This document shows positions 30,121 through 50,308 of a DNA stretch of 64,000 nt, piece by piece. Origin of the DNA: Providencia rettgeri (GTDB taxonomy: Bacteria; Pseudomonadota; Gammaproteobacteria; Enterobacterales; Enterobacteriaceae). The DNA lies in the NCBI RefSeq assembly GCF_001874625.1, contig NZ_CP017671.1:3410001-3474000 (forward strand). Reading direction: 5' to 3'. Each line of letters opens with the position of its first letter. Position 1 is the first letter of the stretch. The translations under genes were made by a program, and so were the position numbers. The notes below the pieces were generated by a model, which saw only the letters and a program-made list of their open reading frames with translations, searched no databases and was not told where the DNA came from.

Positions 30121-30804
30121 TTAATTACCCGAGAAATTACTTATAACTTCATACGTCAATGAATCATTAGAACTATTTATAATTTTTAGTTTTACATTCC
30201 CATAAGAAATAACATTGCTTTTTTTAAGGTTATATTGAAGGTTATTTCCAAACCCTTGATTTTCAATGTTTGAGCCTATTTTTCTGTAGCTAATATCTAC
30301 TATTTGATTATTTATCCCATTAAAAATCAAAGCCTGCTCAAATGAATTACCATCAGGGTTATTTAACTCAAGATATTCAATTTGGGCTTTATCACTACAA
30401 ACAGCAACATTTAAGTCAGTTACAATACAAATTTCATTAGCATTGGCTCCTTTCTTTATTAAAATTGAACTCCATGGCTGACCAAGAGCCTCAACGACAA
30501 CAGAACCGGAGTCAATGGTTTGAGCTGGCATATAGAAATCACCTTTGTCACTTGAACCAACTTTTTTGAACACACCAGGAATAATTTTATAAGCCAAGTC
30601 TATTTGTATTGGGTTCAATACCTTAATCGCTTTCAGCTCGCTTATATCACCTTCCCTAACTAAACTTTGACCTATGATGGCACGATTAACACTACCTACT
30701 TTCGGCTCACTTATTTTATGTGAATCTGGCGTGTAATTATATTCGGTCACTGCACACCCAGATAATGAAAGAATACAACTAACAGAAACTAACAAATTTT
30801 TCAT
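30121..30804 (-). CDS. Putative outer-membrane lipoprotein, unknown function
   Basis: The 227-residue protein starts MKNLLVSVSCILSLSGC, a lipoprotein signal with lipobox LSGC and lipidated Cys17. The residue after the Cys is Ala rather than Asp, so outer-membrane sorting by Lol is expected. The mature part is strand-rich with no domain I recognise. It stands immediately beside a decayed copy of an SSB-like gene (30870-30985), the same position occupied by other cargo genes at 39899 and 49393. This suggests it arrived as cargo of an integrative element. AT content is high. Confidence 0.6.
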   Translation of the reverse strand: MKNLLVSVSCILSLSGCAVTEYNYTPDSHKISEPKVGSVNRAIIGQSLVREGDISELKAIKVLNPIQIDLAYKIIPGVFKKVGSSDKGDFYMPAQTIDSGSVVVEALGQPWSSILIKKGANANEICIVTDLNVAVCSDKAQIEYLELNNPDGNSFEQALIFNGINNQIVDISYRKIGSNIENQGFGNNLQYNLKKSNVISYGNVKLKIINSSNDSLTYEVISNFSGN

Positions 30805-30869
30805 TTAATAAGACCCGTGGAAAAAAACATATGTGGACATCAAAGGTTACATTTATAAACAAATTCTAA

Positions 30870-30990
30870 CAAGCAATTCTCTGCGCTCCTGTTAGCGGAT
30901 AACCACTAAATCACTCATAGTAACCTGTAACTTTCTTCCTTTCTGGCAGGTCACCCGCTACAACGCGTTAATTTAGAGGTGGCTTGACTT
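30870..30990 (-). pseudogene. Decayed 3' end of an SSB-like gene (copy of 49943-50060)
   Basis: The plus-strand text from CTGCGCTCCTGTTAGCGGAT onward follows 49961-50045 closely, including the TTCCTTTCTGGCAGGTCA stretch, with substitutions and small indels. No frame remains open. It is a relic of the element family described in the summary. Confidence 0.75.
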
Positions 30991-31074
30991 TTTCAGCATC
31001 CTGAATAGCTCTGATTCTTTCCATTTGAGTCATTATTACCATTACAGGTTTTAAAAATTACTGGTAAGAAGTTA

Positions 31075-31243
31075 TCCCACCTTATACCTATAATGAGTCT
31101 GTCGTCGTTTCAGTGATCAATTTAGTACTATCATAAGGCATAGATAACGGGCGCATTATCGCTGTACGAATTCATGGGCTTAGCTATCAAGCTAAAGGCG
31201 GTAAAGTATGGGATAAGGATATTGTAGGTAAGCTTATTTAATT
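31075..31243 (+). pseudogene. Decayed C-terminal half of the RHH/recombinase-like gene (copy of 53865-54010)
   Basis: From about 31083 the sequence matches the C-terminal coding part of the intact gene at 53637-54053, including TATAATGAGTCTG, ATAGATAACGG and GGGATAA segments, with indels that break the frame. It lies downstream of the SSB-like relic in the same relative arrangement as in the element at 48988-56600. Confidence 0.75.
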
Positions 31244-31326
31244 ATAAAACAGGTAGAGGGGCGGTTTTAGCTAACTAACTCGCCCTTCTAACAAAAAAGG
31301 ATTAGGAGAAACTATATTAGCTATGT

Positions 31327-31764
31327 TTAATAAAGGCAGTTAGAAGATGACCAGTCTTTAATTAATCCATTTTTATCGGTAATAAAGTTATCTACGCATA
31401 AGCGAGGGTTATTAAGGTACGGGTCATTAGAACTGTTTTGGGTTTTCTTAAAGGTATACTGAGATCCCCCATCCTGTCTCTTATGAACCCCAAAAGGGCT
31501 GCCCCTTTGCATTATTAGGTCATCTATAGATTTACCAATCCAACTTTGGCGGCGATTTTTGAATTCATACTCCTCTTTTTCTCTTTCTAATTGTGCTTTT
31601 GATTTCATTGTAGTGGTGTTATTTCCATTGTTTTTGTGCTTTGCACCAGGGACACCCGTTAATGCATAAGTTATATCTGATATGGTATCTCTATGTTTCT
31701 GAGTACAACCACTTAATATGATCAGTGAAACTAAAATTATACTTAAATTGAATTTTTTATTCAT
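31327..31764 (-). CDS. Small lipoprotein with SmpA/OmlA-like C-terminal region
   Basis: Lipoprotein of 145 residues with signal peptide and lipobox LSGC (Cys20). The C-terminal half reads SWIGKSIDDLIMQRGSP followed by a short strand pattern and two Cys that could form a disulfide. That layout resembles the SmpA/OmlA (BamE-like) fold, but a firm family assignment is not possible. A charged Lys/Glu-rich linker joins the halves. It lies next to element relics and may be cargo. No operon partner. Confidence 0.6.
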   Translation of the reverse strand: MNKKFNLSIILVSLIILSGCTQKHRDTISDITYALTGVPGAKHKNNGNNTTTMKSKAQLEREKEEYEFKNRRQSWIGKSIDDLIMQRGSPFGVHKRQDGGSQYTFKKTQNSSNDPYLNNPRLCVDNFITDKNGLIKDWSSSNCLY

Positions 31765-31789
31765 CGAAGATAGCTCAAAGTTAATAATT

Positions 31790-33086
31790 AGTAATTATTT
31801 CATGTAGATATGAAATTTAAGTGTATCTTATACTAACTATAGTAATTATTAGACATATGAGAATCATCCGATATTGAAATAAACACAACCTAACCCCCAA
31901 ATATTGCGCCGTTCAAAACGGTACGAAAGATATCGCATGGCTATTTTTTCGCTCTACCAATTACAATCTCTTACTAAAACTTTTGTATCATAATAATCTA
32001 TTGACCTAATCATTTTTATACATCTGATATTGTGAACAATAATTAATTTCAATCTGAAGTTTTCTGTGGTAGTAAACTGAGAACAACAATTAATAGTAGG
32101 CAATTATTGGATAAATACAGCCATTAATAGGCTTCAATACTCTATTCCCCTTCAAGGCCAACTACGAATTCACTCTTTTTCTCGCGATTTAAGCACGGTT
32201 TTTCTTGGTGATATTCACGATCACATACTGTGATTACTCAATCCTGAACGCTGTGTCAGTCGGTCTATTCTTATCCACGTTTTGTGGTTACGAGAACCAT
32301 TCAGGATAGTCGGTTATCTCCATGAGATATCCATAAAAAAGCCCCCTATATGTTGAATGATATGTCCAACTTTTTGGGTGCAATTCATAAGCGGGTTAGT
32401 TTTTGATGGCTACTGAGCTCTTCCTAAATGAAACCCATCAACCCTATCAATACGTATTCTCCATAAGAATAGTGGCATATCTGCGGATGGGTGGCTTAGT
32501 ATTTTAACGTCTTTCATGTGTAGTATTGTTACTATTTTTAATGGATTTGCGTCAAAGTCAGCAATTAAATGGTTGTAATAAAACTGAATAATTTCACCAC
32601 ATTAAGAGGTAGCTTATCCATAGGATATATTATCATTACCAATTTAAATTGTATTTCTGATTAATTGCACCAATGTAAATATCTATTTAGTAAATTATAT
32701 CGTGTTCTATTTAGTTGTCTTGTTATTAAAATAGTACAGACTTAATTAATAAAAATGCATGAGATTACTAGTTACAATGCACATAATTAAGATAAATTCA
32801 TTTATCTGCACAATAACCAATCATGATTAATTTTGGCATTTAACTCTGACAAGTTAACTTTTGGTGCTTTCAAGTTTTACATCGGTATTTATTGGTAATA
32901 TAATCGGCTAAATTCATTATTCCTATCATGTAGTAAAGTAGAAATAAGAAAATCGTAACATTTTACAGTTTATATAATTAAAGCAATTGTTTGGGTTTGT
33001 TATATTTTAAAAATTATACTGCGATGTAAATTTACTACCTACAATAGTTAATGTCGCCAAATATCTCTTTATAATGGGATAGTCGT
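31790..33086. other. Long intergenic region with IS3-type end and decayed coding relic
   Basis: About 1.3 kb without an intact gene. At 32363-32387 the minus strand reads like an IS150-type IS3-family terminal repeat (TGAATTGCACCC, then GTTGGACA). At 32081-32356 one plus-strand frame stays open across 90 codons except for one TGA at 32231, but it lacks a start codon and I do not recognise the product. The arms ATCCTGAA/TTCAGGAT near 32243 and 32303 flank a small CCAC/GTGG hairpin. From 32400 to 33086 only AT-rich sequence and the promoter of the next operon are seen. Confidence 0.5.
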
Positions 33087-33290
33087 ATGAAAGATTTAAT
33101 TCTAGGGGGTACGGTTTTTATACCCGGTATTGCTTTGGTATTTTTTTTAGGTTTCTTTTTTTGGTTATTGATTAGGGTGGTTTACGCAAATTTAGTGTGC
33201 AAATATGAATATGCGGGGAGTTTATTCGATATTTCCATACTATTTTTCTGCGTTTTGGCCGTTCATTCATTATTAATTTATAGTTGGTAA
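33087..33290 (+). CDS. DUF1656 (AaeX-like) small membrane protein
   Basis: A 67-residue protein with two hydrophobic helices, matching the DUF1656/AaeX family that accompanies HlyD and FUSC efflux genes. The stop is 4 bp before the next start. Function within the pump is unknown even in E. coli. Confidence 0.8.
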   Translation: MKDLILGGTVFIPGIALVFFLGFFFWLLIRVVYANLVCKYEYAGSLFDISILFFCVLAVHSLLIYSW

Positions 33291-33294
33291 TATA

Positions 33295-34143
33295 ATGAAT
33301 ATAAAGAAATACTTATTAATTATTATATCTGTTTTTATCATCATTTCGTCTATATATTTATTATGGAACCATTATGCATTAAGTCCATGGACTCGTGATG
33401 GTAGAGTGCGCGCTGAAATCAACCAAGTGACAGCTGAGGTTTCAGGGAAAATTGAACAATTGATGGTCATTGACAACCAAGAGGTCAAACAAGGTGAATT
33501 GTTACTCATCGTTGACCCTACTGATTATGAAATTAAACTACGTCAATCTGAATTAGAACTTAATGATTTAGTAGTTCAATACAATTTTGCAAAGAACCAA
33601 TTAGCAAGGCGGACTAAATTAAGTCAAGTTGCAATATCTAAGGAAGAGCTAGATGATGCTAGAGCCCGCCAGGAAAGCTTAGCTAAGAAAATTGAATTAG
33701 CAAAAGTGAAGATTGAAAAAGCTAAACTTGACCTATCAAGAACACAAATTCATTCACCAGTAAATGGTTTTATTACTAATTTGAATTTACGTTCAGGGAA
33801 TTATATTAATGCAGGTTCCCCTTTATTTGCGATCGTTGATAAAGACTCTTTCTATGTGATTGCTTATTTAGAAGAAACTAAAATGACCAATGTTGTGGTT
33901 GGTGATAGTGCAAGTATAAAGTTATACAGTAACAATCATGAATTAAAAGGCAAAGTACAAAGCATTGGTAGAGCAATTGATGATAACAATTCCACGACAG
34001 GGAGTCTGTTACTTGAAAATATACAGCCTAACTACCCGTGGGTTCGATTAGCGCAAAGAGTACCAATTAAAATATCATTAAATGGCACTCAAGGAGTTAC
34101 ACTTATACCGGGTACGACTTGCACTGTATTTATTGAAGACTAA
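33295..34143 (+). CDS. HlyD/EmrA-family periplasmic adaptor (AaeA-like)
   Basis: The 282-residue protein has an N-terminal membrane anchor (about residues 5-24), a lipoyl half-motif (VSGKIEQLMV), a coiled-coil hairpin (about 80-140) and a second lipoyl half (SRTQIHSPVNGFITN). This is the membrane-fusion-protein layout. It links the FUSC inner-membrane protein encoded next to the outer membrane for efflux of aromatic acids or similar compounds. It is shorter than E. coli AaeA (310). Confidence 0.88.
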   Translation: MNIKKYLLIIISVFIIISSIYLLWNHYALSPWTRDGRVRAEINQVTAEVSGKIEQLMVIDNQEVKQGELLLIVDPTDYEIKLRQSELELNDLVVQYNFAKNQLARRTKLSQVAISKEELDDARARQESLAKKIELAKVKIEKAKLDLSRTQIHSPVNGFITNLNLRSGNYINAGSPLFAIVDKDSFYVIAYLEETKMTNVVVGDSASIKLYSNNHELKGKVQSIGRAIDDNNSTTGSLLLENIQPNYPWVRLAQRVPIKISLNGTQGVTLIPGTTCTVFIED

Positions 34144-35781
34144 GTGATGAAACTAAACTGGATATTCGCAGTTAAATATATGCTAGCGATTTTATTGGCT
34201 TGGTATATATCTTCATATTTTGGTTTTGATAAGCCCTATTGGTCAATGATGACGGTCGCAATCATTGGCTATCCAGACCCATCATTAAGCTTGGCTAAAA
34301 TGGTGGCACGGCTTGCGGGAAGTTTTATTGGCGTTATAGCAGTAACATTAATCGCTAATATTAGTATCAGTGACCACTGGCTGTTTACCGCCCTGATTAT
34401 TATTTGGCTGTCAGTATGTTTATTTATGGCGCTGACCTCACGTTATATGATGCCTTATATGTTTTCACTTTCGGGGTATACTTCTGCAATTATTGCTTTT
34501 GGTACTTCAGTTTATCCATTGCCTATGACTATATTTAATTTGTCTCAAGAAAGGCTAATGGAGGTCATGATAGGTATCATTATTTATACATTTATTAGTT
34601 ATGCTTTGCCAAATAGAACGAATAATCTACAAACAGTTCTACTGAAAAGAAAAATAAGTACGGATAGAAAAGATGTGTTATCAAGTGTGTTCAAAGGAAA
34701 CTATGATAATACGATGAAAAATCTATCTATTATCATTGCTGATAGTATTGCCCATGATGAAGTGAGTAAATATGAAAGTCATTTTTTATCTTTTAAAAAG
34801 GCACACAGTAAGGTATTAAAATTACCTATGCTGGTCACTATATCTATTATTGGTTTAGTCGATCGAGCATTTTTACAGTATGAAAAATATAATCAAATAT
34901 TAAGCTTGAAGAACAAGGTTGATAATCCCTCTACCTCTCAGTTTTATGTTTTTTTTGATTGGAAAGATGCTTTTTTAAATACATTAAGGTTAGTTGTAAG
35001 CCTAGTGATTAGTGTCATTTTTTGGCTTAATACTGGTTGGGAATATGGCTACATATTACCTGTGCTAGTGAGTATTTCTTTTACTTTTGGGGTTACTATT
35101 CCCAATGCTAATAAGCTTGCTTTTATTGTATTTATTGTTGCTCTCTTGGTTATCGCACTTAGCTATGTATTGAAGTTTTTCTTTTTAATACAAGCATCAA
35201 GCTTTATGCAAGCAGCTTTGATTATGACCCCTGTTTTCATCCTTTTAGGTGTCCTGAAAACAGTCGGTAAATTAGCATTTCTGATTTCACATATTATGTG
35301 TATTTCATTAATATTTTTAATTAATTTTACTAATCCAATGAGCTTTGATTTTGTCTTTTTTGCTAATACAGCCATAGCACTTATTTTTTCTATCATTATA
35401 GTGATCTTGATGTTGTATATCATCCCATTGAGTAATACACAGCAAATAGAATCTCGTAAAGTTAATTTCATTTTACAGAAGATAAATACAATACCGTTAA
35501 ATGAATTGGCTCTCATAAAAATCCGTAATACCTTACTAATGAATGTGAATTCATTATATGAACATAAAAATATTAACCAATTTTACGTGTTAATTGCATT
35601 GATTAGCCTATATGAATTATCCGAATCTGAGCAGGTAAGAAAGCTGATAGTAAGTATCATTAATGCAGTATCAATAAAAGATGATAAAGATAATATATTG
35701 AAATCTCTTAATGGTACTGAAAAATTTTATTCTGATATTAATGTAAAGTATGCCAAAGACGTTATTGGCTTGTTGTTATAA
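34144..35781 (+). CDS. FUSC-family efflux transporter (AaeB-like)
   Basis: A 545-residue inner-membrane protein with two clusters of about five hydrophobic helices (residues ~10-160 and ~280-430) around soluble segments, as in FUSC/AaeB proteins. GTG at 34144 and ATG at 34147 are both possible starts, directly after the adaptor stop. It probably forms a tripartite exporter with the HlyD-like protein. It is about 100 residues shorter than E. coli AaeB, so the substrate may differ. No LysR regulator such as AaeR is adjacent. Confidence 0.85.
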   Translation: MMKLNWIFAVKYMLAILLAWYISSYFGFDKPYWSMMTVAIIGYPDPSLSLAKMVARLAGSFIGVIAVTLIANISISDHWLFTALIIIWLSVCLFMALTSRYMMPYMFSLSGYTSAIIAFGTSVYPLPMTIFNLSQERLMEVMIGIIIYTFISYALPNRTNNLQTVLLKRKISTDRKDVLSSVFKGNYDNTMKNLSIIIADSIAHDEVSKYESHFLSFKKAHSKVLKLPMLVTISIIGLVDRAFLQYEKYNQILSLKNKVDNPSTSQFYVFFDWKDAFLNTLRLVVSLVISVIFWLNTGWEYGYILPVLVSISFTFGVTIPNANKLAFIVFIVALLVIALSYVLKFFFLIQASSFMQAALIMTPVFILLGVLKTVGKLAFLISHIMCISLIFLINFTNPMSFDFVFFANTAIALIFSIIIVILMLYIIPLSNTQQIESRKVNFILQKINTIPLNELALIKIRNTLLMNVNSLYEHKNINQFYVLIALISLYELSESEQVRKLIVSIINAVSIKDDKDNILKSLNGTEKFYSDINVKYAKDVIGLLL

Positions 35782-35802
35782 CCATAAATATATGAGGTGG
35801 TC

Positions 35803-36462
35803 ATGTTTGAATTATTAACTGCAATAGGTATTGGGTTAGTGGTATTGTTGCCATTATCAAATCCACTAACTACAGTTGCATTGTTTCTTGGTTTATCAGG
35901 TGGAATGACAATTGAGGCTCGTAAAAAAACTATAAAAATGACGCCTGTATATGTCTTTTTTATTATGTTGGCCTCATGGTATTCAGGGCAAGCGATCATG
36001 AATACCTTTGGTGTTACTATTCCTGGTTTGAGGATTGCAGGTGGTTTTATTGTTGCCTACATTGGTTTTCGTATGTTGTTTCCTATCGCTGAAAATAGCC
36101 GTAATGTTGAAGAGGGAAAAGCGGTAGATAATACATCTAGTATTGCATTTGTTCCTTTAGCTATGCCAAGTACTGCAGGGCCAGGTACTATAGCGATGAT
36201 TATTAGTATGGCTTCATCAGTAATCACCAATGAAAGCGCTTACCCACATTGGGTTGTTATTGTCGCGCCACCGCTGGTATTTTTAATTTTTTCTGTGATC
36301 CTGTGGGCCAGTCTAAAAAGCTCAAATCTTATTATGAAGTTTTTTGGTAAAAGCGGTATTGATGCAATATCTAGGCTGATGGGATTTTTACTGGTTTGTA
36401 TGGGCGTGCAGTTTATCATTACGGGTATAGGAGAACTCACACGTTCTGGTTTTTTTAGCTAG
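35803..36462 (+). CDS. MarC-family (UPF0056) integral membrane protein
   Basis: Protein of 219 residues, close to E. coli MarC (221), with six helices and the family motifs [17 protein letters not shown] and [17 protein letters not shown]. The start at 35803 follows GAGG by five bases. It is 21 bp after the FUSC gene and likely ends that operon, since a strong terminator follows. The biochemical function of MarC proteins is unresolved; a former link to antibiotic resistance was not upheld. Confidence 0.88.
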
Positions 36463-36505
36463 TTTTGATCAATGTTATCGTGTATTGCTCTGATTTAATA
36501 TATAA

Positions 36506-36551
36506 ATAACACCTTATTCAGCTCTTACTCCTCAACTGAATAAGGTGTTAT
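36506..36551 (+). terminator. Intrinsic terminator after marC-like gene
   Basis: Sixteen-bp perfect stem, 36506-36521 with 36536-36551, then a T-rich tract from 36556. Between here and 36851 no further gene or signal is visible. Confidence 0.88.
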
Positions 36552-36851
36552 AGCGTTTTATTTTTCATCGCCAGTCAACAAAGGTGATAAATTAATATCG
36601 AATAGTATTAATTATCTTTACCATCTCTAAATCCTTTTAGAATATACAAAAAACACATTAGTGAATATGTTATTACTTAATTTTTAAATATAGTTACTAA
36701 CTATTTGAAATTACAACGCCTTTTCATATTTACATGAGAAGTGGATATAATTTAAATATAATGTTAAAAAACTATCTAACTACCTTTGTTAACGAGCCCG
36801 AAAATCATCATTCTTATTCCCCTACCAATAATCAACTATTCCCCATAAAAA

Positions 36852-37265: not shown

Positions 37266-37444
37266 GTTGAACGGACCTATTTTTTGTCTTATAAAAAGAT
37301 ATGGTCGACACTACTCGATTGTTATCCACTAGAAAACAGAAAGCACTGCGCCCTATGGTGTGTAAGAATCTCACGCTATCAGCTCTAATGTGAATATCTA
37401 CCATATCAATGACTGGCTTCTCACACATTACAATTATACATATA

Positions 37445-37526
37445 AAGCCAGCCTTTTATCTTTACCAGCATATCTATATTTTATACGCCAATACTTAGAG
37501 CCATTCGGGGTAACTTCTAAATACAT
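37445..37526 (-). pseudogene. Integrase N-terminal fragment (copy of 56264-56345)
   Basis: This ~80-bp stretch nearly repeats the part of the truncated integrase gene encoding its arm-type DNA-binding strands, including TTTACCAGCATATCTATATT. Flanking sequence is unrelated and no open frame survives. It marks another decayed integration of the same integrase type. Confidence 0.75.
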
Positions 37527-37769
37527 GGCTAAAGCCGCGACAGAAAAACCCATCAATTATCTACAAATATCTTTTCAGCAAGACTGATACAGTAAGTATT
37601 GATATCGTATTTGAAAGAGCACTAATTCACCACACTAATGATTACAATAGTAATTATAATGAAATCCATAGAATTCTAAATGATTATGGGTATTTTATTA
37701 TTCAGGATAGAAGCATGAAAATGTTGCCCTATCGGGTGGAGAACAACACTTACGTGGTTTCCTCTTTGA

Positions 37770-38641
<872 letters not shown>

Positions 38642-38679
38642 CAGCTTGAAGATAATTTATAACGATACTGAGACTATCT

Positions 38680-39594: not shown

Positions 39595-39848
39595 CTACAG
39601 GATTCAATATAAAGACATACCTCATTAATTATAAACATTTTATATTCATTCAATTTCGTATCATGCTTCCAATTATGTCCCCTTTTTATTTTGTGACTCA
39701 AAAATTAAGAGGTTCAGGCTTCAGTTTTCCCAAAGCCACCAGCATTGCAAAATATCATCAATTGGTAATTTCATTGCAGATAATGAAATACCAACCGGAA
39801 ATAGTTCTACTCGTGTTTTCCACGACTTCGTTTCAAACGGAACTGTAA
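39595..39848. repeat. Dispersed repeat, left flank, copy 1
   Basis: About 250 bp closely matching 49095-49340. It begins with the attachment-core remnant CTACAGGATTC and continues through the stretches CAATATAAAG, CATACCTCATT and TTTTTATTTTGTGACTC. No coding frame is convincingly conserved between the copies. A different gene follows each copy. Confidence 0.85.
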
Positions 39849-39898: not shown

Positions 39899-40429
39899 TT
39901 AAACTTTACTTTCAGGGTTTAGCTTGAACATGATGGTTGTTGATTCAAGGTCGCCATGAATTGATTGAGCGAACTCAGGGATTTCACCACTAACCTGCCA
40001 TCCTAGAGAGGTATATAAGCTAACAGTTATTCCTTTGGTATTTGTATCTAATGTTAGAAGTGTCAATCCTGTTTCCCATGCTATTTGCTCAGCCGCTAGC
40101 ATTAATCTCCTTGCGAGACCTTTGCGCCTGTAATCAGGTAATACCAATAATTTACAAATTTCTCCTCGGTGTTTGCCATTTGGCTTTGTACACAAATCAA
40201 GTCCAACAACACCAACGATTTTATTATCTACCTCTACTGAGATAAGCTTAAAATTGTTTGTTGATAAAGAGTGATTGACACCAACCCAATAATTTTTCAT
40301 ATCACCTATTTGATCTTTTGCGTCAGTATATCCAACACTAGCCCCACCAAGGACGCATCTATACAATAAATTGGTCAGCTCATCTATTTTGTTATCGCTT
40401 ATTTTGTCACTATAACAACGTATAATCAT
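39899..40429 (-). CDS. GNAT-family N-acetyltransferase
   Basis: This 176-residue protein has the acetyl-CoA-binding motif RRKGLARRLM (about residues 108-117) preceded by the strand ICKLLVLPDY, and a C-terminal strand pattern typical of GNAT enzymes. The substrate is unknown; small-molecule or antibiotic acetylation is possible. It sits as cargo between two repeats that elsewhere flank a DUF3024 gene (39595-39848 and 40554-40732). It reads in the same direction as the SSB-like relic beside it. Confidence 0.82.
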   Translation of the reverse strand: MIIRCYSDKISDNKIDELTNLLYRCVLGGASVGYTDAKDQIGDMKNYWVGVNHSLSTNNFKLISVEVDNKIVGVVGLDLCTKPNGKHRGEICKLLVLPDYRRKGLARRLMLAAEQIAWETGLTLLTLDTNTKGITVSLYTSLGWQVSGEIPEFAQSIHGDLESTTIMFKLNPESKV

Positions 40430-40553
40430 ATTTGCGCCTCAATAAGGGTCTCATTGCACAATAAGTTAGTAGATTAACTATGAATTAATTGAGCACACAA
40501 GTAACTAAAATTTTATAGATATATTTGAAACTCCTCGGTAACTTCGGAGCAGC

Positions 40554-40732
40554 TGAACTGGTCATCTTAAAGAGGAACAATGAAAGGTAGGTAACTAATT
40601 GTGGGTTAGTCTAAAGATGTGAAATGTCCTCTTTAGATTTTCCGATTTCAAATCGGCTTATGATACTAACTTTTACTAAGCAGTAACTATCTGCGCCCCT
40701 GTTAGCTGATAGCCATTAAACCTCTGTAGCTT
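40554..40732. repeat. Dispersed repeat, SSB-side flank, copy 1
   Basis: About 180 bp matching 49821-49988. Shared blocks include GAACTGGTCATCTTAAAGAG, CTAATTGTGGGTTAGTC, GTGAAATGTCCTCTTTAGAT and CTGCGCCCCTGTTAGCTGAT. The last block is the 3' end of the SSB-like gene in the second copy; here the gene is lost beyond it. Confidence 0.88.
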
Positions 40733-42172: not shown

Positions 42173-42197
42173 ATGGTAAGTGATTGAAAATTAATGG

Positions 42198-43195: not shown

Positions 43196-43273
43196 AAAAA
43201 CACCCCAAAGTTGGACTAAACCTCAAGGTGCAGCTCACATTGAGCTGTCTTCATTTTGACTTAATCACTTCAA

Positions 43274-44221
43274 TTAAGCTGTTTGCTGGCCTTCAGACTT
43301 TAAAACTAACCATAAACCCGCCAAAATCAAACATAATCCTATGACAGCTAACATATTAACGTTCTCATGAGCGACAACGATCGCAAGGAAAAACGCCACA
43401 ATCGGTTCAATTAAGCCCAATGCCACACCTGTAGGTGCGCTAATATGTTTCAAAGCTTGGGTATATAAAAGGTAAGCCACTCCAGTCGTTAATAATCCAA
43501 GATAAAATATAACAGCAATGCTTACCCAACCGACGGTTGGTGTTCCGGCTAGTACCCAAGCTATTGGAACAGCAATAAATATAGCAATACTAAATGTATG
43601 CTTAGTAATGGTTAATGGAGAATCAATACTGACCAATTTTTTACTCATCAACGTATAAAGTGCATAGCAAAAACCCGCACTCAAACAAATAAGCAAACCC
43701 CCCGTATTAATTTGCCAGCTACTACTTTGAGAAAGAACCATCCATGTCCCCCCAGCCGTTGCACAAAAAGTACCGAGCCACCAAAGCAAAGACGGTGATT
43801 TCTTTAAAAGGAGCGCCTGCATTAAGCCCGCCCAAATAGGCGCACTACCAATCGTTGTAGCAGTTCCAATTGCGATCCCAGTCGCCTTAATACCTGCAAA
43901 AAAAGTTAAGTTATATAACCCCATACAGATACCTGCGATAGTTATATATCGCCAATATATCATTGATTTTTTGGCAGAATTATCTGTTTGTTGTTGCTCA
44001 TTTACTTTTAGCGCTTGGCGGTTTGTAATTCGATAAAAAAACAACAAATGAAAGAATAAACACGCAACAAGCAACCTAAATGCCCCAATCCAGTAAGGAG
44101 CCGTTGCTCCTTGCACAAAGCTTTGAGCTGTCCCAGCCGTTCCCCATAAGAAGGCCGCACATAAAGCGAGAGTGATACCCACTAAAGATATTTTTTTCAT
44201 CGTCATTGAATTTTCTACCAC
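43274..44221 (-). CDS. EamA-family (DMT) metabolite or drug exporter
   Basis: Protein of up to 315 residues with ten hydrophobic helices in two EamA halves (AAFLWGTAGTAQSFV near the start; GFCYALYTLMSKKL in the second half; GLIEPIVAFFLAI). ATGs at 44206 and 44200 are equally plausible starts because the first GTG has no strong RBS. It likely exports a small metabolite and may be induced through the MarR regulator next to it. Confidence 0.85.
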   Translation of the reverse strand: MVENSMTMKKISLVGITLALCAAFLWGTAGTAQSFVQGATAPYWIGAFRLLVACLFFHLLFFYRITNRQALKVNEQQQTDNSAKKSMIYWRYITIAGICMGLYNLTFFAGIKATGIAIGTATTIGSAPIWAGLMQALLLKKSPSLLWWLGTFCATAGGTWMVLSQSSSWQINTGGLLICLSAGFCYALYTLMSKKLVSIDSPLTITKHTFSIAIFIAVPIAWVLAGTPTVGWVSIAVIFYLGLLTTGVAYLLYTQALKHISAPTGVALGLIEPIVAFFLAIVVAHENVNMLAVIGLCLILAGLWLVLKSEGQQTA

Positions 44222-44237
44222 TTTTTCAATAAAAATA

Positions 44238-44395
44238 TATCTTCATGCTAAGATACTTTTAGTGAAGAAACAAGGCAGAAAGATAAAAACAACCACAAAC
44301 GCTGTGAATTGATGATTAAAATCAATGTTTGTACGTTTTTAAATTGATATTAAAAAACCATTAATTAATACTAATTATATCTTCTCATGAAGATA
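44238..44395. promoter_or_regulatory. Two identical-type dyads between the divergent exporter and DcuC genes
   Basis: Site 1 (44238-44255) and site 2 (44378-44395) both read TATCTT-N6-AAGATA and are both followed by CTT. Each is 34-37 bp upstream of a start (site 1 near the EamA gene, site 2 near the DcuC gene). Symmetry and placement fit a MarR-type operator at each promoter. Confidence 0.6.
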
Positions 44396-44428
44396 CTTCT
44401 AATAAAACAATAATGATGCGAGGCAGCT

Positions 44429-45793
44429 ATGACTGTTATAATTATCAGTGTAATAGTGTTGATACTAGCGGGTTATGCAATTGCGAAGAACTTCGAAGCA
44501 AAAATTGTATTATTCACCGCAGGTATTGCGCTGATGCTCAGCGCAGCAATGTTAGGGATGCCTATTTTAGATATAAAGCAAAGCACAGGGAATATTTGGC
44601 TTGATCCACTAAAACAAATACAGCTAGGGTTTATCAAACAATTTGGTGGCGCAGGGATCATAATCATGGTCCTATTCGGTTTTTCTTCTTATATGTCACG
44701 CATTGGTGCAAACGATGCCGCGGTTCATTTAGTTGCAAAGCCTATTTCAAAAATCCGGTCTCCTTATATCCTAGTTCCAATCGTTTTTTGGCTAGGAAAC
44801 TTACTGTCGTTAGTGATCCCCAGTGCGGCTTCCTTAGCCGTTATTTTAATGGCGACCTTATACCCAATATTAAGGGCTGCTAAAATGTCATCAATGACCG
44901 CCGCGGGTATTATTGCCACCACTGCAACTATTATGCCAACACCATTAGGAGGAGATAACGTTGTCGCCGCTCGGTTACTGGGCTTTGAGCATGTCGTCGA
45001 CTATGTCACCTTACACCATGCCGTGATCTCCCTCCCCGTTTTATTATTAATGGGTTTTGCGCATTATTTCTGGCAAAAATATATGGATAAGCGCCAAGGT
45101 GCCGCGGCCTTTACCGAAGTTGATAAGAGTAAGCTTGAAGGTAATAAAGATCTTCCTCCGGCTTATTATGCCCTCTTTCCACTTGTTCCACTTATCTTAA
45201 TTATTGTATTAGGGCTGTGTTTTAGAGAAATCAAAGTCGGACTAGTTGAAATTACTCTGTTCTCTTTTGTTCTTGCATTTGTCACTGAGCTTACCCGTAA
45301 AGGCAATCCAAAAGAACAAATGGTGCAAGCCGGGTTATTTTTTAAAGGCATGGGGGAAGGGTTTTCTCAAGTCGTTGTCCTGATTGTTGCTGCGGGTACT
45401 CTGGTTGCGGGTCTGAATGCCATTGGTATCATCGACATGATTTCCGGTGTTGTGAAGGACGTCAATAACGCAGGGGTTGGGTTAATGTTTATTTTCTCTG
45501 GCTTAACGGCATTGATCACCTTCATTAGCGGTAGTGGTAACGCAGTATTCTATTCTTTCATTGAATTGATCCCATCTATTGCTAATCAGGCTCATGTTGA
45601 CCCAATTATGGTTGCTCTACCAATGCAATTTACCTCTAACCTAGTTCGAGCAATTTCTCCAGTTTCTGCTGTCGTCATTATTGTCGCATCGGTTATCAAA
45701 GTGAGTCCTGTTGAAGTAGTGAAAAGAACCTCTGTACCTTTAGCGGTAGGCACGATAGCAACGTTAATTTATGCATATTTTCTGTATGCGTAG
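44429..45793 (+). CDS. DcuC-family C4-dicarboxylate carrier
   Basis: A 454-residue inner-membrane protein with about 12 helices and DcuC-family stretches such as FGFSSYMSRIGANDAA, PSAASLAVILMATLYP, TPLGGDNVVAA and SGSGNAVFYSFIELIP. E. coli DcuC exchanges fumarate, succinate and aspartate anaerobically. It is followed 26 bp on by an AbgA-like amidohydrolase and then a periplasmic asparaginase, suggesting uptake of aspartate or an N-acylated amino acid. The exact substrate is inferred. Confidence 0.85.
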   Translation: MTVIIISVIVLILAGYAIAKNFEAKIVLFTAGIALMLSAAMLGMPILDIKQSTGNIWLDPLKQIQLGFIKQFGGAGIIIMVLFGFSSYMSRIGANDAAVHLVAKPISKIRSPYILVPIVFWLGNLLSLVIPSAASLAVILMATLYPILRAAKMSSMTAAGIIATTATIMPTPLGGDNVVAARLLGFEHVVDYVTLHHAVISLPVLLLMGFAHYFWQKYMDKRQGAAAFTEVDKSKLEGNKDLPPAYYALFPLVPLILIIVLGLCFREIKVGLVEITLFSFVLAFVTELTRKGNPKEQMVQAGLFFKGMGEGFSQVVVLIVAAGTLVAGLNAIGIIDMISGVVKDVNNAGVGLMFIFSGLTALITFISGSGNAVFYSFIELIPSIANQAHVDPIMVALPMQFTSNLVRAISPVSAVVIIVASVIKVSPVEVVKRTSVPLAVGTIATLIYAYFLYA

Positions 45794-45819
45794 AATGGGT
45801 TATTAAAAGGAAAATCAAA

Positions 45820-47094
45820 ATGACTACAATAGATAATGCCTCATTAGTTGCGTGGAGGCGTCAGTTCCACTGTTACCCAGAAACGGGTTGGGGAGAGTTT
45901 TATACCACGGCGATCTTAATTAAAACACTTGAAGAAATGGGGCACCATGTATTAGAAGGGGAGCAGATTATCAACCCTGATTTCATTCGTGGTCGCAATC
46001 CATCCATTGTTGAAAAAGCCAAGCGCGCAGCCAAAGAACGCGGGGTCGATGATGCGCTACTCGAAAGGATCGGTGACTACACTGGATGTGCGGCAATCTT
46101 TGATACAGGACGACCGGGGCCCACTGTCGCATTTCGTTTTGATATTGATTGCGTCAATGTACAAGAAACCGATACGGCAGAGCACATCCCAAATCAAGAA
46201 GGGTTTAGCTCAACGAATCAAGACTATATGCATGCTTGCGGCCATGATGGACACATGGCTATCGGCCTCGGTGTGGCAAAATGGCTAATCGAGAATAAAG
46301 ACCGTCCACTTAAGGGGGTTATTAAACTCATATTCCAACCCGCAGAAGAAGGTGTACGGGGAGCAAAGCCTATTGCTGAAAGTGGCATTTTAGATGATGT
46401 TGATTACTTTGCCTGTGGCCACCTTGGCTGTGATATTCCGAGTGGAGTGGTCGTTGCTGCACCTGAACGTTACCTTTCCACCTTAAAAATGGATCTCCGT
46501 TTTAAAGGTAAAGCCGCTCACGCAGGAATGGAGCCCCATGCAGGGAAAAATGCCTTACTGGCTGCCTGTAATGCCACTATCCAGATCTTAAGCTTGCCAA
46601 CCCACGGTGAAGGAATGACACGAGCCAACGTCGGAGTCTTAAATGCAGGTGAAGGCCGTAACGTGATCCCTTCATACGCACAGATGCAAATTGAAGTACG
46701 GGGTGAAAACGAAAAAATTAACAATTACATGACCGAAGAAGCCTTAAGACGTGCACGCGGTGTAGCACTCAGCTTTGATGTTGAACTCGAAACTGAGGTC
46801 ATGGGGGAAGCCGTTGATTTCATTCCTGACGATGAAATGACTGACTATATCACTGAAGTAGCTCAAACCATTCCAGCCGTAGAAAAAGTACAGCGCACCA
46901 TGAATTTTAATGGCAGTGATGATGCCACGCTGTTGATTAAACGTGTACAAGCCCATGGCGGAAAGGCCGCTTATTTTGTGATTGGCTCTGACATCAAAGC
47001 GGGCCACCATCAAGCCAAATTTGATATCGATGAAGAACAGCTATTCACTGGTTTTTCAATCTTTACAGGGTTACTACAACGTTTATCCGTATAA
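45820..47094 (+). CDS. M20 metallopeptidase/amidohydrolase, AbgA-like
   Basis: Protein of 424 residues with RRQFHCYPETGW at the start, a long insert after residue ~50 typical of AbgA, the metal motif HACGHDGHMA, PAEEGVRGA and a later GHHQAKFD. It belongs to the M20D group that cleaves N-acyl or p-aminobenzoyl amino acids. Without a visible AbgB partner it may act alone on an N-acyl-aspartate or related amide imported by the adjacent DcuC-like carrier. No signal peptide, so cytoplasmic. Confidence 0.85.
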   Translation: MTTIDNASLVAWRRQFHCYPETGWGEFYTTAILIKTLEEMGHHVLEGEQIINPDFIRGRNPSIVEKAKRAAKERGVDDALLERIGDYTGCAAIFDTGRPGPTVAFRFDIDCVNVQETDTAEHIPNQEGFSSTNQDYMHACGHDGHMAIGLGVAKWLIENKDRPLKGVIKLIFQPAEEGVRGAKPIAESGILDDVDYFACGHLGCDIPSGVVVAAPERYLSTLKMDLRFKGKAAHAGMEPHAGKNALLAACNATIQILSLPTHGEGMTRANVGVLNAGEGRNVIPSYAQMQIEVRGENEKINNYMTEEALRRARGVALSFDVELETEVMGEAVDFIPDDEMTDYITEVAQTIPAVEKVQRTMNFNGSDDATLLIKRVQAHGGKAAYFVIGSDIKAGHHQAKFDIDEEQLFTGFSIFTGLLQRLSV

Positions 47095-47124
47095 AAACAA
47101 CAAATCAATATAAGCCAATTATGA

Positions 47125-47156
47125 AACCTTATAACGGATAATGTTATAAGGTTTTT
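47125..47156 (+). terminator. Intrinsic terminator between amidohydrolase and asparaginase
   Basis: Eleven-bp perfect stem AACCTTATAAC/GTTATAAGGTT with a 7-nt loop and a T tract. It lies only 10 bp before the asparaginase start, so the asparaginase must have a promoter overlapping this site or depend on read-through. Confidence 0.85.
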
Positions 47157-47165
47157 TAAGGAAAT

Positions 47166-48215
47166 ATGATGAAAAAGACATTATTAAATACGCTACTTTC
47201 TAGCATAATCTTATATACCTCTGTTTCACTCGCAGCCGACGCCATTAAACCCAACGTAACCATTTTAGCCACTGGGGGCACCATCGCAGGAAGCTCCAAG
47301 TCCAACCTTGATACCACCGATTATAAAGCGGGCTCACTGGGTATTGATGTATTAATCAATGCCGTGCCAGAAATCAACGATGTTGCTATCGTCAAAGGCG
47401 AACAAGTTTCTAACACCATTAGCGGCAATATTAGCAGCGAGATCCTCTTAAACCTCAGTAAGCGTGTTAACTATTTACTGAATGAAGGAAATCAACAAGG
47501 TGTAGTTATCACTCATGGTACTGATACAATTGAAGAAACAGCATTTTTTTTAGAATTAACAACTAACAATAAAAAGCCGACCGTTATTGTCGGAGCAATG
47601 AGACCAGCCACGGCTATCAGTGCAGATGGCCCAATAAACCTGCTTGAAGGCGTAGTACTTGCCGCAGACAAAAAAGCAGAAGACCGTGGGGTTATGGTGG
47701 TTTTAAATGACCGTATTGGCTCTGCTTTTTATACCACTAAAGCAAACTCCACAACACCTGATGCATTTAAATCTTACGAGCCTGGTTATTTAGGTGTCTT
47801 TGTGAGTGGAAATCCTAAATTTTACTATACCCCAGCACAGCCTATTGATCGTGCTTTCTTTGATATCAGTAAAATAGATGATCTACCGAGTGTTGAAATT
47901 ATTTATGCCTATCAAGATCAAACTCCAGCCCTGCTAGATGCTGCTATCAGTAACGGAGCAAAAGGAATTATTGTTGCGGGAAGTGGCAATGGAAATGTCT
48001 CTAGCAATATGGAAGAGGCAATTAAACAGCTGAGTGATAAAGGTGTTCCTATCGTGATGGCAACGCGTACAGGATCAGGTTATGTAAGTAGTAAATCATT
48101 TGCGATAGGAGCAGGATTTTTAAACCCACAAAAATCCCGTATTTTATTACAACTAGCGCTCGCAAGCGGTGCCGATATTAAACAAATCTCTAATTATTTT
48201 GATAGCCAACGTTAG
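47166..48215 (+). CDS. ansB: Periplasmic type II L-asparaginase
   Basis: The 349-residue protein has a Sec signal peptide (to about residue 24, SLAADA), the first active-site motif ILATGGTIAGSS with catalytic Thr, and the second motif ITHGTDTIEETAFF. It hydrolyses periplasmic asparagine to aspartate and ammonia. The neighbouring DcuC-type carrier could then take up the aspartate. Met at 47166 and 47169 are both possible starts after AAGGAAA. Confidence 0.92.
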   Translation: MMKKTLLNTLLSSIILYTSVSLAADAIKPNVTILATGGTIAGSSKSNLDTTDYKAGSLGIDVLINAVPEINDVAIVKGEQVSNTISGNISSEILLNLSKRVNYLLNEGNQQGVVITHGTDTIEETAFFLELTTNNKKPTVIVGAMRPATAISADGPINLLEGVVLAADKKAEDRGVMVVLNDRIGSAFYTTKANSTTPDAFKSYEPGYLGVFVSGNPKFYYTPAQPIDRAFFDISKIDDLPSVEIIYAYQDQTPALLDAAISNGAKGIIVAGSGNGNVSSNMEEAIKQLSDKGVPIVMATRTGSGYVSSKSFAIGAGFLNPQKSRILLQLALASGADIKQISNYFDSQR

Positions 48216-48240
48216 CCGAATACCGAATGGTTATATTATT

Positions 48241-48269
48241 AAAGGTGCCTAATATATTGGCGCCTTTTT
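48241..48269 (+). terminator. Intrinsic terminator after ansB
   Basis: AAAGGTGCC pairs with GGCGCCTTT (one T-G pair) across a 9-nt loop, followed by T-rich sequence. Confidence 0.8.
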
Positions 48270-48322
48270 ATTTATTAATGATTTTAATGCATGGTCAAAT
48301 AAGACGATTATCTATCTAAGAT

Positions 48323-48480
48323 TTAAAGATTTTCTTTTTTAGCTAACAGGTAATAAACAATCGCTGTAATAGGGAATGTAATAAAAAATGCAAAATTATA
48401 GCTAATCATACCTGAGACCAATCCAATAACAAGCGCAATGATATCCGGTTTTCTCCAGTTAAGAATATAATCACTATTAT
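48323..48480 (-). pseudogene. C-terminal fragment of an NCS1-type permease gene
   Basis: Minus-strand translation from about 48473 to the TAA at 48323-48325 gives ILNWRKPDIIALVIG, SYNFAFFITFPITAIVYY and LLAKKENL, the last helices of a cytosine/allantoin-type NCS1 permease. The N-terminal part is missing; the fragment abuts the IS3-type transposase relic. Confidence 0.65.
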
Positions 48481-48484
48481 GTCG

Positions 48485-48957
48485 GGAATATCAAGTATAT
48501 TCGACATTATAGTAAGTGGATTTACTTAGCCCGTATGTTGAATTTAGTGTCCAAAGAAATTATTGGCTATATCTTATCAACAAAACCGGATTCGGAATTA
48601 GCGAAAGAAGCCTTAGATAACAGCATTGAAAGGCAATTACCGGATACGACAAGTTTGATGTTCCATTCAGATTAAGGTTGCCAATATTCATTGGAGGAGT
48701 TTAAGGAGCACCTCATTGAAAGGAAAGTAACTCAGAGCATGAATCGGCAAGGTAATTGCCTCGATAATGCAGTGATGGAAAGATTTTTTAGGAGCTTAAA
48801 GACTGAAAGATTTAACCACTTATCGTTTATAAATCATCAGTCTGTTATCAATAAAATTGAAGATTATATCCAGTTTTATAATTATTATCGACGCTATTCA
48901 ACGATTGGCTATTTAACACCCCATCAAAAATATCATGAACTAAAAAATGCCGCTTAG
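48485..48957 (+). pseudogene. IS3-family transposase OrfB relic
   Basis: One frame encodes the second half of an IS3/IS150-type integrase-like transposase: YIRHYSKWIYLARML, FHSD-stop-GCQYS, MNRQGNCLDNAVMERFFRSLK, YNYYRRYSTIGYLTPHQKYH. The TAA at 48673-48675 replaces the usual Gln after HSD. The first catalytic Asp codon appears as AAT (Asn) just before KYIR. The 5' part and OrfA are absent, so it is inactive. Confidence 0.88.
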
Positions 48958-48987
48958 ATCTTCTACAGAATTTGTTGACCATTACAA

Positions 48988-49105
48988 TTTCAATAGACGT
49001 GACTAGACCTTGGAATACTATGGATTCTTGTGATAGCTGATTTTATAAGGGCTTTATGGACTATTGTGGACGTTGAAATACTTGAGAATGGCCCCTACAG
49101 GATTC
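48988..49105. repeat. Direct repeat, left attachment end of the 7.6-kb element
   Basis: About 118 bp matching 56478-56598 with scattered substitutions. It includes CAATAGACGTGACTAGACCT, TTGGAATACTATG and GAAATACTTGAGAATGG, and ends in CCCTACAGGATTC, the tRNA-Arg 3'-end segment. It defines the left end of an integrative element. Confidence 0.88.
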
Positions 49106-49345
49106 AATATAAAGCCATACCTCATTGATTATAAACACCTTAAAATCATTCAATTTCGTGTCATGCCCCCAATTATGCCCCCTTTTTATTTTGTGACTCA
49201 AAAATTAAGAGGTTCAAGCTTAATTTTTCCCAATGCCACCAGCGTTGCAAAAATATCATCAATTGATGATTTCATTGCAGATAACGAAATACCAACCAGA
49301 AATAACCCTATCCGTAATCTACATGTGTTTTTTACTACCGCCTTT
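49101..49345. repeat. Dispersed repeat, left flank, copy 2
   Basis: About 245 bp matching 39601-39848, with the TTTTTATTTTGTGACTC and GATTTCATTGCAGATAA-like blocks. It lies directly inside the left attachment repeat and before the DUF3024 cargo gene. Confidence 0.85.
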
Positions 49346-49392
49346 TCAAACGGAACGATAACAACCGAAAAATATTTTTCACATGCAGAGAG

Positions 49393-49713
49393 CTACCCAA
49401 AGAAATAGGATGAATCATCTTCATCAACTATCTTAAGAGCTTCTTCTAAAGAATATGTGCGTGTTTTGTCATAAATTACCCAATGGTCAACATTAAACCA
49501 AAACAGCCGCCAATTGGACTCAGTACAATCGAACTTTATTTTTATAATAGGTATAGATTGCTTATCACCACAACAATTACCGCTTTGCTTAATGATTACC
49601 TCCTTATTTCGAACGCTGTAGGTTAAGTTGAAAACACTCCTTGCATCACCTGAAGGCATCCATATATTAATATATTGCTCAATAAGATACTTAATCTTTG
49701 ATGATTCCATCAT
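49393..49713 (-). CDS. DUF3024-family protein
   Basis: A 106-residue protein whose C-terminal half follows the DUF3024 pattern: PIIKIKFDCTESNWRLFWF, then DHWVIYD, SLEEALKIVDEDD and a final FFG. The N-terminal half has a CC pair. Function of the family is unknown; members occur singly on chromosomes and mobile elements. Here it occupies the cargo slot between the two dispersed repeats that at 39.6-40.7 kb enclose a GNAT gene. Confidence 0.7.
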   Translation of the reverse strand: MMESSKIKYLIEQYINIWMPSGDARSVFNLTYSVRNKEVIIKQSGNCCGDKQSIPIIKIKFDCTESNWRLFWFNVDHWVIYDKTRTYSLEEALKIVDEDDSSYFFG

Positions 49714-49820
49714 TCGCTATACCTGCACAAAAATAATTGTTCTCATTCCAATTGAATTCTAATCGTAAAGCAATACTTGAATGTAGCTTACCAAACTGCC
49801 CCGATATTTTCGGGTTAGTT

Positions 49821-49988
49821 GAACTGGTCATCTTAAAGAGGGTCAGTTAAAGGTAGGCAACTAATTGTGGGTTAGTCCAAAGAGGTGAAATGTCCTCTTT
49901 AGATTTCCCGACTTCAAATCGGTTTATTGATACTAACTTTTACTAAGTAGTAACTATCTGCGCCCCTGTTAGCTGATAACCATTAAAC
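49821..49988. repeat. Dispersed repeat, SSB-side flank, copy 2
   Basis: Matches 40554-40732. It covers the sequence between the cargo gene and the 3' end of the SSB-like gene. Its repeated inner block TCATCTTAAAGAG and CCTCTTTAGAT can partly pair, suggesting a structured RNA end. Confidence 0.85.
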
Positions 49989-50308
49989 CATTCATAGCGA
50001 CCTGTAGCCGTGACTTTGTTTCCTTTCTGGCAGGTCATTATCTCCAGCGCGTTAATATCGAATGCCACTATCTTTAATGGATACGGGCTACGCTTGTCAC
50101 TCTCAGCCTGAATAGTCATCGTGGCCATAACTTTACCTGTAGCTGTTTTCACTCGCTCAGGGGCTTTTATTACCGTTCCTGATGTGGTGATCCTAATTGA
50201 TTTTTCTTTTCTCATTTCTGGTTTATTCATCTTGATACCATCACAATATAAGCCATTGGTTAAAATAAAATGCTGATAGGATTCTGGAAGATTGGGTAAT
50301 AATTCCAA
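49943..50308 (-). CDS. SSB-like OB-fold protein of the integrative element
   Basis: Up to 121 residues (TTG start), or 95 from the ATG at 50230. The sequence SGTVIKAPERVKTATGKV, ATMTIQAE, YPLKIVAFD, KGNKVTATGRYEWFNGYQLTG follows the strand order of single-stranded-DNA-binding OB folds. It probably serves replication or integration of the element. Neither start has a strong RBS. Degenerate copies of its 3' end occur at 30870-30990 and 40680-40732, each beside a different cargo gene. Confidence 0.65.
   Translation of the reverse strand: MELLPNLPESYQHFILTNGLYCDGIKMNKPEMRKEKSIRITTSGTVIKAPERVKTATGKVMATMTIQAESDKRSPYPLKIVAFDINALEIMTCQKGNKVTATGRYEWFNGYQLTGAQIVTT

Follow-up and report, generated by a model that had tools for sequence, protein, structure and literature searches.

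Accessory genes that change at a defined place are already known from phage satellites, namely the P4-like elements and the phage-inducible chromosomal islands (PICIs). For P4-like satellites, the study by Rousset et al. (2022, PMC9122126) describes a defence hotspot between psu and int, beside cos, that holds unrelated systems in either orientation and in P4 holds gop-beta-cII; the mechanism of exchange is left open there, with recombination at the cohesive ends offered as speculation. A second source (PMC6092414) locates the accessory genes of the Staphylococcus aureus pathogenicity islands (SaPIs) either between int and stl or at the 3' end, the one remote from int, and describes Gram-negative PICIs by int, alpA and a primase, by a lack of phage structural genes and by a size of ~12-15 kb. 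The PICI-like elements (PLEs) of Vibrio cholerae were reported in 2026 to encode their own tape measure protein; that paper (PMC12987554) states that no other satellite had been reported with one and points to putative tmp genes in additional satellites, capsid-forming PICIs (cf-PICIs) among them. An open-access literature search, covering titles and abstract openings, returned no description of phage satellites of Providencia, Proteus or Morganella. Here we analyse 64,000 nucleotides of Providencia rettgeri DNA (NZ_CP017671.1, positions 3,410,001 to 3,474,000; hereafter the window), in which the end of a gene for a protein resembling single-stranded DNA-binding protein (SSB) recurs at three sites, each beside a different gene. 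We read the three sites as the slot ends of related satellites that integrated one after another at a tRNA-Arg(UCU) gene and then decayed, the slot being a place where accessory genes are exchanged, and we give this reading a probability of about 0.82.

The repeats on which a sequence-only reading of the window had based its proposal are real. By self-BLAST of the window, the far repeat at 49095-49356 matches 39595-39843 (85%, E 3e-77), the near repeat at 49793-49989 matches 40528-40722 (89%, E 2e-66) and a third copy pairs 49943-50056 with 30866-30972 (77%, E 5e-17); chance is excluded for all three pairs. The 3' end of the SSB-like gene is present at all three sites, as that reading had it, but SSB coding sequence amounts to only 47 bp (40676-40722) in the middle copy, where the rest of the near repeat is the intergenic block C2a, and to ~107 bp in the left copy, which is SSB 3' sequence without C2a. 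Three additional pairs go beyond the earlier list: 53837-54005 with 31056-31223 (82%), 56477-56598 with 48987-49105 (90%) and 56247-56339 with 37435-37527 (91%). The first of these adds to the third site a remnant of gene M (53637-54053), which identifies that site as a decayed copy of a larger module, while the other two lie in or just upstream of an integrase fragment (55910-56413) and thus point to an integrating element. With the copies numbered 0, 2 and 1 from left to right, copy 1 retains the SSB-like gene, M and part of the integrase, copy 2 only the 47 bp and copy 0 fragments; copies 0 and 2 are further decayed than copy 1.

Complete elements, all in Providencia, measure ~22.6 kb (G010), 23.0 kb (G007) and 23.7 kb (G023; G and L numbers are our handles for genomes and loci). 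In each, a tRNA gene stands beside the integrase and direct repeats mark the ends, of 13 bp in G010 at tRNA-Arg (tct) and of 25 bp in G007 and 28 bp in G023, both at tRNA-Ser (tga). Pfam and PHROGs together assign to the G010 element an integrase (PF13356/PF00589), AlpA (PF05930), a P4-type primase (Zn_Ribbon_Prim, Toprim_3 and DUF927), ProQ, an antirepressor, a repressor-like ('Icd-like') protein, a tape measure protein (phrog_1107, E 1e-121) and a Neck1-like protein (phrog_5). Open reading frames (ORFs) of more than 300 aa number four in G010, four in G007, five in G023 and four in a further stretch, G015, and they are the tape measure, primase, repressor-like protein and integrase, plus a 342-aa ORF without assignment in G023; no capsid, portal or large terminase was recognised among the ORFs of this length in the four elements, whose smaller ORFs are only partly annotated. 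An integrase, AlpA, a primase and a tape measure without a recognised terminase, portal or capsid above 300 aa constitute satellite content, and the three repeat-bounded elements are integrated between attL and attR with an integrase of their own; all four carry only a partial set of structural and packaging genes. They are most likely P4/PICI-like phage satellites of Morganellaceae.

The tape measure gene was found in 18 of 26 distinct loci bearing M, as a partial gene in the case of L054, a count that leaves out the window and takes L083 and L084, which have the same length and match positions but not identical letters, as one (19/27 if taken separately); the M-bearing stretches reach ~10 kb, and a missing tape measure may lie outside them. 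These proteins are of three sequence types, with best matches to phrog_1107, phrog_2276 and phrog_339, and resemble those of phages such as Klebsiella and Salmonella prophage-type phages, at best at 60-80% over short parts. Genes for Neck1-like, TerS-like or DUF5681 proteins lie near them. Elsewhere in a Providencia genome (G023:C1:1992216) there is a related tape measure, 50% identical in its C-terminal part, which could belong to a helper.

Aligned over the loci, the far flank proves to be an attachment end of prophage type. It runs from a tRNA 3' end (CCTACAGGATTC), which forms its left edge in the window and several relatives, through an arm with repeated sites into a constant block, C1. 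Given the arm sites typical of this class of integrase, and their position, we take the repeated sites to be putative integrase arm sites; in G010, a 20-bp arm site is present at both element ends. The repeated site sorts the arms into types that have C1 in common, the typing resting on motifs of five types, with L069, L071, L072, L075 and L092 lacking an exact match. Copies of the tRNA core lie at window positions 39595 (one base different), 42199, 49094 and 56587, and one more lies past the window end, at 98176; the partial core at 56587 is followed by a phage-like region. ARAGORN detected no intact tRNA in the window or the next 39 kb, and the sequence that best matches the G010 tRNA-Arg plus the gene after it is ~137.5 kb from the window start (coordinate ~137520). 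The window is most likely a stack of decayed satellites built at one tRNA-Arg site.

At the near flank, the SSB-like label given by the sequence-only reading holds by fold but not by family threshold: the protein reaches 18.9 bits against Pfam PF00436, where the cut-off is 26, and has no PDB match by sequence, whereas its AlphaFold model (mean predicted local distance difference test score 76, predicted template-modelling score 0.65) retrieves SSB and PriB chains in Foldseek at E 1e-4 (best) to 1e-3. The 95-aa protein is thus predicted to be an SSB/PriB OB-fold; an upstream extension of its ORF is broken by a stop in L049. Relatives of the gene occur in Providencia, Proteus, Morganella, Moellerella, one bin labelled Paceibacterota and 12 viral contigs, eight of them of 47-73 kb and three of 22-24 kb; the protein has no match in the phage-isolate or plasmid collections. 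The locus in the Candidatus Paceibacterota bin (L071) is a satellite end; a contig from some relative of Morganella may have been misbinned there. Searched as DNA, the near flank is found in 15 of 99 genomes (14 Providencia and one weak match in another genus) and the far flank in 14 of the 99, all Providencia.

The slot lies between these flanks, at the element end opposite the integrase. Read on the SSB-like strand, an empty slot consists of the SSB-like stop codon, C2a, a block C3, a short variable stretch, C1 and the attachment arm. Both flanks are present in 29 distinct loci, of which 12 are empty, 16 filled and one unclear (L072, a ~450 bp gap with no convincing gene); L063 is included despite an SSB-like gene truncated after residue 86. 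Left out, with one flank undetected, are window copy 0, L051, L052, L059, L061, L064, L065, L077, L078, L080, L083, L084, L086, L089 and L090, and duplicate fetches of the same region were removed (L066=L060, L067=L057, L070=L063, L074=L056, L076=L051, L079=L061). The 16 filled slots contain DUF3024, GNAT (four loci), MntP, UzuA, a PDC-S42 set, a 187-aa protein, c70 (two loci), c56, a pair of 243 and 106 aa, an AbiLi/AbiLii-like pair (second member weak), the phrog_1353 lipoprotein, a SocA/Panacea protein with a membrane protein, a second 187-aa protein and DUF1643; a fifteenth cargo type, a Beta protein (Pfam PF14350; PADLOC beta and PD-Lambda-2_C), comes from L083, where the C1 side lies beyond the contig end. 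PADLOC matches were obtained for five of the 15 types: UzuA (E 1e-57), PDC-S42 (2e-33), AbiLi (1e-24), beta (4e-21) and PDC-S43 (the DUF3024 protein, 4e-16), PDC names denoting candidate defence only. For none of the other ten is there a PADLOC match better than 0.004. In L069 and L080, both from Proteus, and in viral contig L090, the SSB-like gene is likewise followed directly by the lipoprotein of window copy 0. DUF1643 (67% identical) occupies the slot region of both Providencia L059 and viral contig L092; the SSB-like gene of L092 belongs to the Morganella type.

The idea of a slot for exchangeable genes in a family of elements is therefore borne out by other genomes with different cargo between common flanks: the flank search that the sequence-only reading had suggested recovered varied genes, and the same cargo everywhere, which it had named as its refutation, is not what is seen. 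Three of its particulars have to be revised. The element is not small, given the sizes above; the cargo is not confined to single genes, being multi-gene in L055, L060, L063 and L081; and the common orientation applies to the lipoprotein, GNAT and DUF3024 genes of the window, all on the minus strand, but not to 5 of the 16 filled slots, which have a gene in the opposite orientation (L054, L056, L057, L060, L091). Variation is also seen outside the slot. An AbiH gene (Pfam 8e-58) at L056:11114-11998, between the SSB-like gene and M, marks a second variable spot, and a third lies to the right of M, where each element has different genes with no PADLOC or PHROGs match (L049:13376-13885, L053:14384-14944, L060:14437-14847). 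In L054 and L064, a 79-80% identical GNAT relative stands beyond C1, outside the attachment end, in a neighbourhood common to both genomes, and may be a leftover of an older element or a source of cargo.

To compare junctions, we used a profile built on nine empty slots, with the SSB stop near column 117, C3 at 276-326 and the C1 palindrome at 389. Expressed as last matched column/first matched column, they are 268/340 for DUF3024, 266/324 for MntP, 116/324 for UzuA, 134/238 for Panacea, 276/380, 274/380 and 273/353 for GNAT, 119/158 for the lipoprotein (L069), 114/210 and 103/158 for c70, 103/229 for DUF1643 (L092), 126/363 for L054, 97/378 for L058, 88/369 for L060, 187/363 for L091, 122/none for PDC-S42 and none/281 for the AbiL pair. 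Over all loci, left edges range over columns 88-276 and right edges over 158-380 and beyond, so the breakpoints constant to the base for which the sequence-only reading had proposed a check are not found, the junctions differing by tens to hundreds of bases. The edges group in two bays, one after the SSB-like gene and one after C2a. For W2 and L056, two of the GNAT copies, the final inverted repeat in C2a is unlike that of other loci, and their left edge therefore probably lies earlier than the column suggests.

Block C3 (39 bp, ≤5 substitutions) is present in 9/9 empty slots of the Providencia/Proteus type and in 3/3 loci with cargo in the SSB-side bay only (L057, L069, L081), and in 0/12 of those where cargo fills the C1-side bay or spans the whole region (window copies 1 and 2, L050, L053, L054, L055, L056, L058, L060, L062, L063, L091). 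At ≤3 mismatches, C3 occurs in 5 of 24 Providencia genomes, each time with the C1-side bay empty. Since C3 is absent wherever the C1-side bay is filled, cargo there replaces slot sequence rather than being added to it. Flanks can be similar around unlike contents. On the two sides of the slot, those of L050 (MntP) and L053 (UzuA) agree at 94.4% (878 nt) and 94.7% (228 nt), those of L081 (Panacea pair) and the empty L085 at 93.0% (556 nt) and 99.1% (228 nt), and those of the window DUF3024 copy and the empty G010 slot at 94.0% over 737 nt and 92.9% over 182 nt. Arm type I is found with DUF3024, GNAT, AbiL, PDC-S42, Panacea, a 187-aa gene and empty slots, and GNAT cargo is paired with arm types I, III and IV. 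The cargo is thus uncoupled from the rest of the element. Non-constant junctions, loss of the empty-slot block and GNAT with three arm types together make replacement across conserved flanks likelier than site-specific cassettes.

Two functional assignments within the slot were rejected. C3 as a packaging (cos-like) or otherwise essential site is not supported, given its loss from the filled C1-side bay and two pattern scans of viral contigs that returned the same four contigs, each bearing an empty slot of this family. The C2a inverted repeats as terminators bounding the cargo found no support in a consensus scan of 49000-50400, which gave 0 terminator-like sites where shuffled sequence averaged 1.2, and 2 promoter-like sites against a shuffle mean of 6.0; because the GNAT copies have a different third inverted repeat, we make no structural claim on these repeats.

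An integron-like cassette system, with single genes moving in and out at a fixed site by a dedicated recombinase, would also produce common flanks around different single genes, all three in the same direction in the window, and the left edges of DUF3024 and MntP do fall within 2 profile columns of each other (268, 266). The spread of both edges over the other loci, the disappearance of empty-slot sequence from filled C1-side bays, the two orientations and the sometimes multi-gene cargo nevertheless make such a system very unlikely. The sequence-only reading had itself spoken of a cassette system without integron features; the second half of that description stands, in that none was seen (no dedicated attC or IntI search was made) and Rfam at E<=1 gives only sar, below its cut-off, and a weak ctRNA in window 29000-60500, whereas the first half does not, the constant recombination point being missing and the integrase fragment having a phage arm-binding domain. 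The duplication of one chromosomal locus twice, with the cargo genes as the diverged parts of its copies, fits the spacing of the copies within ~20 kb and their shared orientation. We consider it scarcely credible, given that the cargo genes belong to unrelated families, that two copies begin with an attachment core of their own and that in other genomes relatives sit at a tRNA-Arg or tRNA-Ser gene among different neighbours; a single duplication, the other refutation foreseen by the sequence-only reading, fails on the same observations.

More serious, although still improbable, is the view that these are remnants of complete temperate phages and that the slot is an ordinary lysogenic-conversion ('moron') region beside the attachment site. 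Prophage ends are a known place of conversion genes, the tape measure, neck-like, small-terminase-like and antirepressor genes are phage genes, and the 47-73 kb contigs make up 8 of the 12 viral contigs with the SSB-like gene. Yet the repeat-bounded elements of three genomes share one architecture, with near-equal size and open reading frames; large terminase, portal and capsid were not recognised among the ORFs above 300 aa; the combination of P4-type primase, AlpA and integrase is that of satellites; and 3 of the 12 viral contigs are 22-24 kb long. Several observations weigh against our reading of the window as stacked satellites with an exchange slot. In G015 the gene order is similar, yet the stretch examined yielded neither a tRNA nor a long direct repeat; and no mosaic recombination event was caught within one lineage, replacement being read from comparison. 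L063 retains the right half of C3, and C3 is no universal empty state, because the empty slots of the Morganella type (L071, L073, L075) are shorter and lack it. As for defence as a general function of the cargo, 10 of 15 types have no PADLOC match above noise.

An intact satellite runs from an attachment end with arm sites through C1, the cargo slot, C2a, the SSB/PriB-like gene and M to a tail/packaging module (tape measure and neck-like, small-terminase-like in some) and P4-type primase, and on through antirepressor, AlpA and integrase to the attachment end in the tRNA. We propose that such satellites integrated in series at the tRNA-Arg(UCU) gene, at its 3' end, and subsequently decayed. 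Cargo could be swapped by homologous recombination through C2a/SSB on one side and C1/arm on the other between two satellites in one cell, which stacked elements would favour, and new cargo may first enter via an irregular event. The slot being at the end far from the integrase, cargo can change while the replication, packaging and integration genes remain untouched. The cargo might benefit the host cell or the satellite, in some cases through defence against competing phages. A more far-reaching proposal, for which we see somewhat less than even chances, is that these elements form a distinct Morganellaceae satellite lineage that brings its own tape measure, often along with a neck-like or terminase-like partner, and so builds chimeric tails on siphophage helpers. 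Its two-bay slot on the attachment side (SSB-like gene to C2a; C2a to C1) would then trade defence systems and other genes through recombination between satellites stacked at one tRNA gene.

Table 1. Features of the window and representative tape measure genes (window coordinates unless a locus is named)
Feature	Position	Strand	Remark
Cytochrome b561-like gene, satellite backbone	29059..29637	-	92% to G010 gene (PF01292 on G010 homologue); probably a leftover of an older copy
Slot cargo 0: lipoprotein phrog_1353	30121..30804	-	
SSB-like gene 3'-end remnant, copy 0	30866..30972	-	self-BLAST
Backbone gene M remnant (as 53637-54053)	31056..31223	+	self-BLAST
Integrase fragment	37435..37527	-	self-BLAST
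Attachment end, copy 2: tRNA core and putative integrase arm sites (type I)	39595..39744	+	
Constant block C1, copy 2	39745..39843	+	
Slot cargo 2: GNAT acetyltransferase	39899..40429	-	likewise in slots of L056, L058, L062
Conserved intergenic block C2a, copy 2	40528..40675	-	
SSB-like gene, final 47 bp, copy 2	40676..40722	-	
Integrase-side attachment arm and tRNA 3' core	48987..49105	+	90% to 56477-56598; interpreted as the point where two tandem elements meet
attL arm, copy 1, putative integrase arm sites (type I)	49095..49243	+	
Constant block C1, copy 1	49244..49356	+	
Slot cargo 1: DUF3024 protein	49393..49713	-	PADLOC candidate PDC-S43, E 4e-16
Conserved intergenic block C2a, copy 1	49793..49942	-	
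Predicted SSB/PriB-fold gene, 95 aa from ATG common to relatives	49943..50230	-	listed ORF 49943-50308
Backbone gene c02, 62 aa	50976..51161	-	
Backbone gene M, conserved beside SSB-like gene	53637..54053	+	
Backbone gene c09	54860..55432	-	paired cysteines by eye; no Pfam or PHROGs family
Satellite integrase, N-terminal fragment	55910..56413	-	first 160 aa identical to intact G010 integrase
Integrase-side attachment end with partial tRNA-Arg sequence	56477..56598	+	
Tape measure gene	L049:15791-19183		homologues in other loci
Tape measure gene	L047:2795-5173		homologues in other loci
Tape measure gene	L056:17847-19472		homologues in other loci

Beyond the features in Table 1, an IS3-like transposase fragment was seen by eye at window 48691-48957, just left of the stacked-element junction. 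A sar-like RNA (RF00262, 41 bits against a cut-off of 43) lies at 60103-60169 on the plus strand, inside the neighbouring phage-like region at ~56829-63875. NCBIfam assigned 0 families among 10 proteins.

The SSB-like gene and C1 serve as two DNA hooks with which interchangeable cargo can be retrieved from Morganellaceae genomes, turning the repeat into a searchable hotspot. These hooks also reach genes that match no family in the libraries used, in the place where predicted defence sits, namely c70, the 187-aa genes (L054, L091), the 112-aa c56 and the 243-aa gene of L060. Empty slots supply a reference state and so open exchange at a satellite hotspot to study at base level, and the tape measure genes offer a further host family for testing satellite control of phage tails.

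Set beside the P4 study, the Providencia elements have in common with P4-like satellites the integrase, AlpA, primase and a variable locus, and the Beta protein of L083 overlaps gop-beta-cII in kind. In contrast to the hotspot between psu and int, the Providencia slot lies opposite the integrase, beside the attachment site and the SSB-like gene; Psu (PF07455) was detected in 0/7 genomes, yet 14 control genomes were silent too. By the PICI description, the gene set of int, alpA and primase agrees, as does the small terminase subunit in some members, and the slot resembles the SaPI position away from int. Size and structural content do not agree, the present elements being 22.6-23.7 kb rather than 12-15 kb and encoding a tape measure and a neck-like protein. 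A further criterion for Gram-negative PICIs is that prophages never occupy their attachment sites; in the window, a phage-like region comes after the partial tRNA core at 56587. A satellite-encoded tape measure is what they share with PLEs; they differ in host family, in a tape measure that resembles those of phages such as the Klebsiella and Salmonella prophage type and in its company of Neck1-like, TerS-like or DUF5681 genes. The Providencia case fits that class of satellite tape measures, and it may have the same mode of action. Against the background of known cargo hotspots in P4 and PICIs, it is the lineage, the slot beside an SSB/PriB-fold gene, its two bays and the tape measure module that make these satellites a variant of their own.

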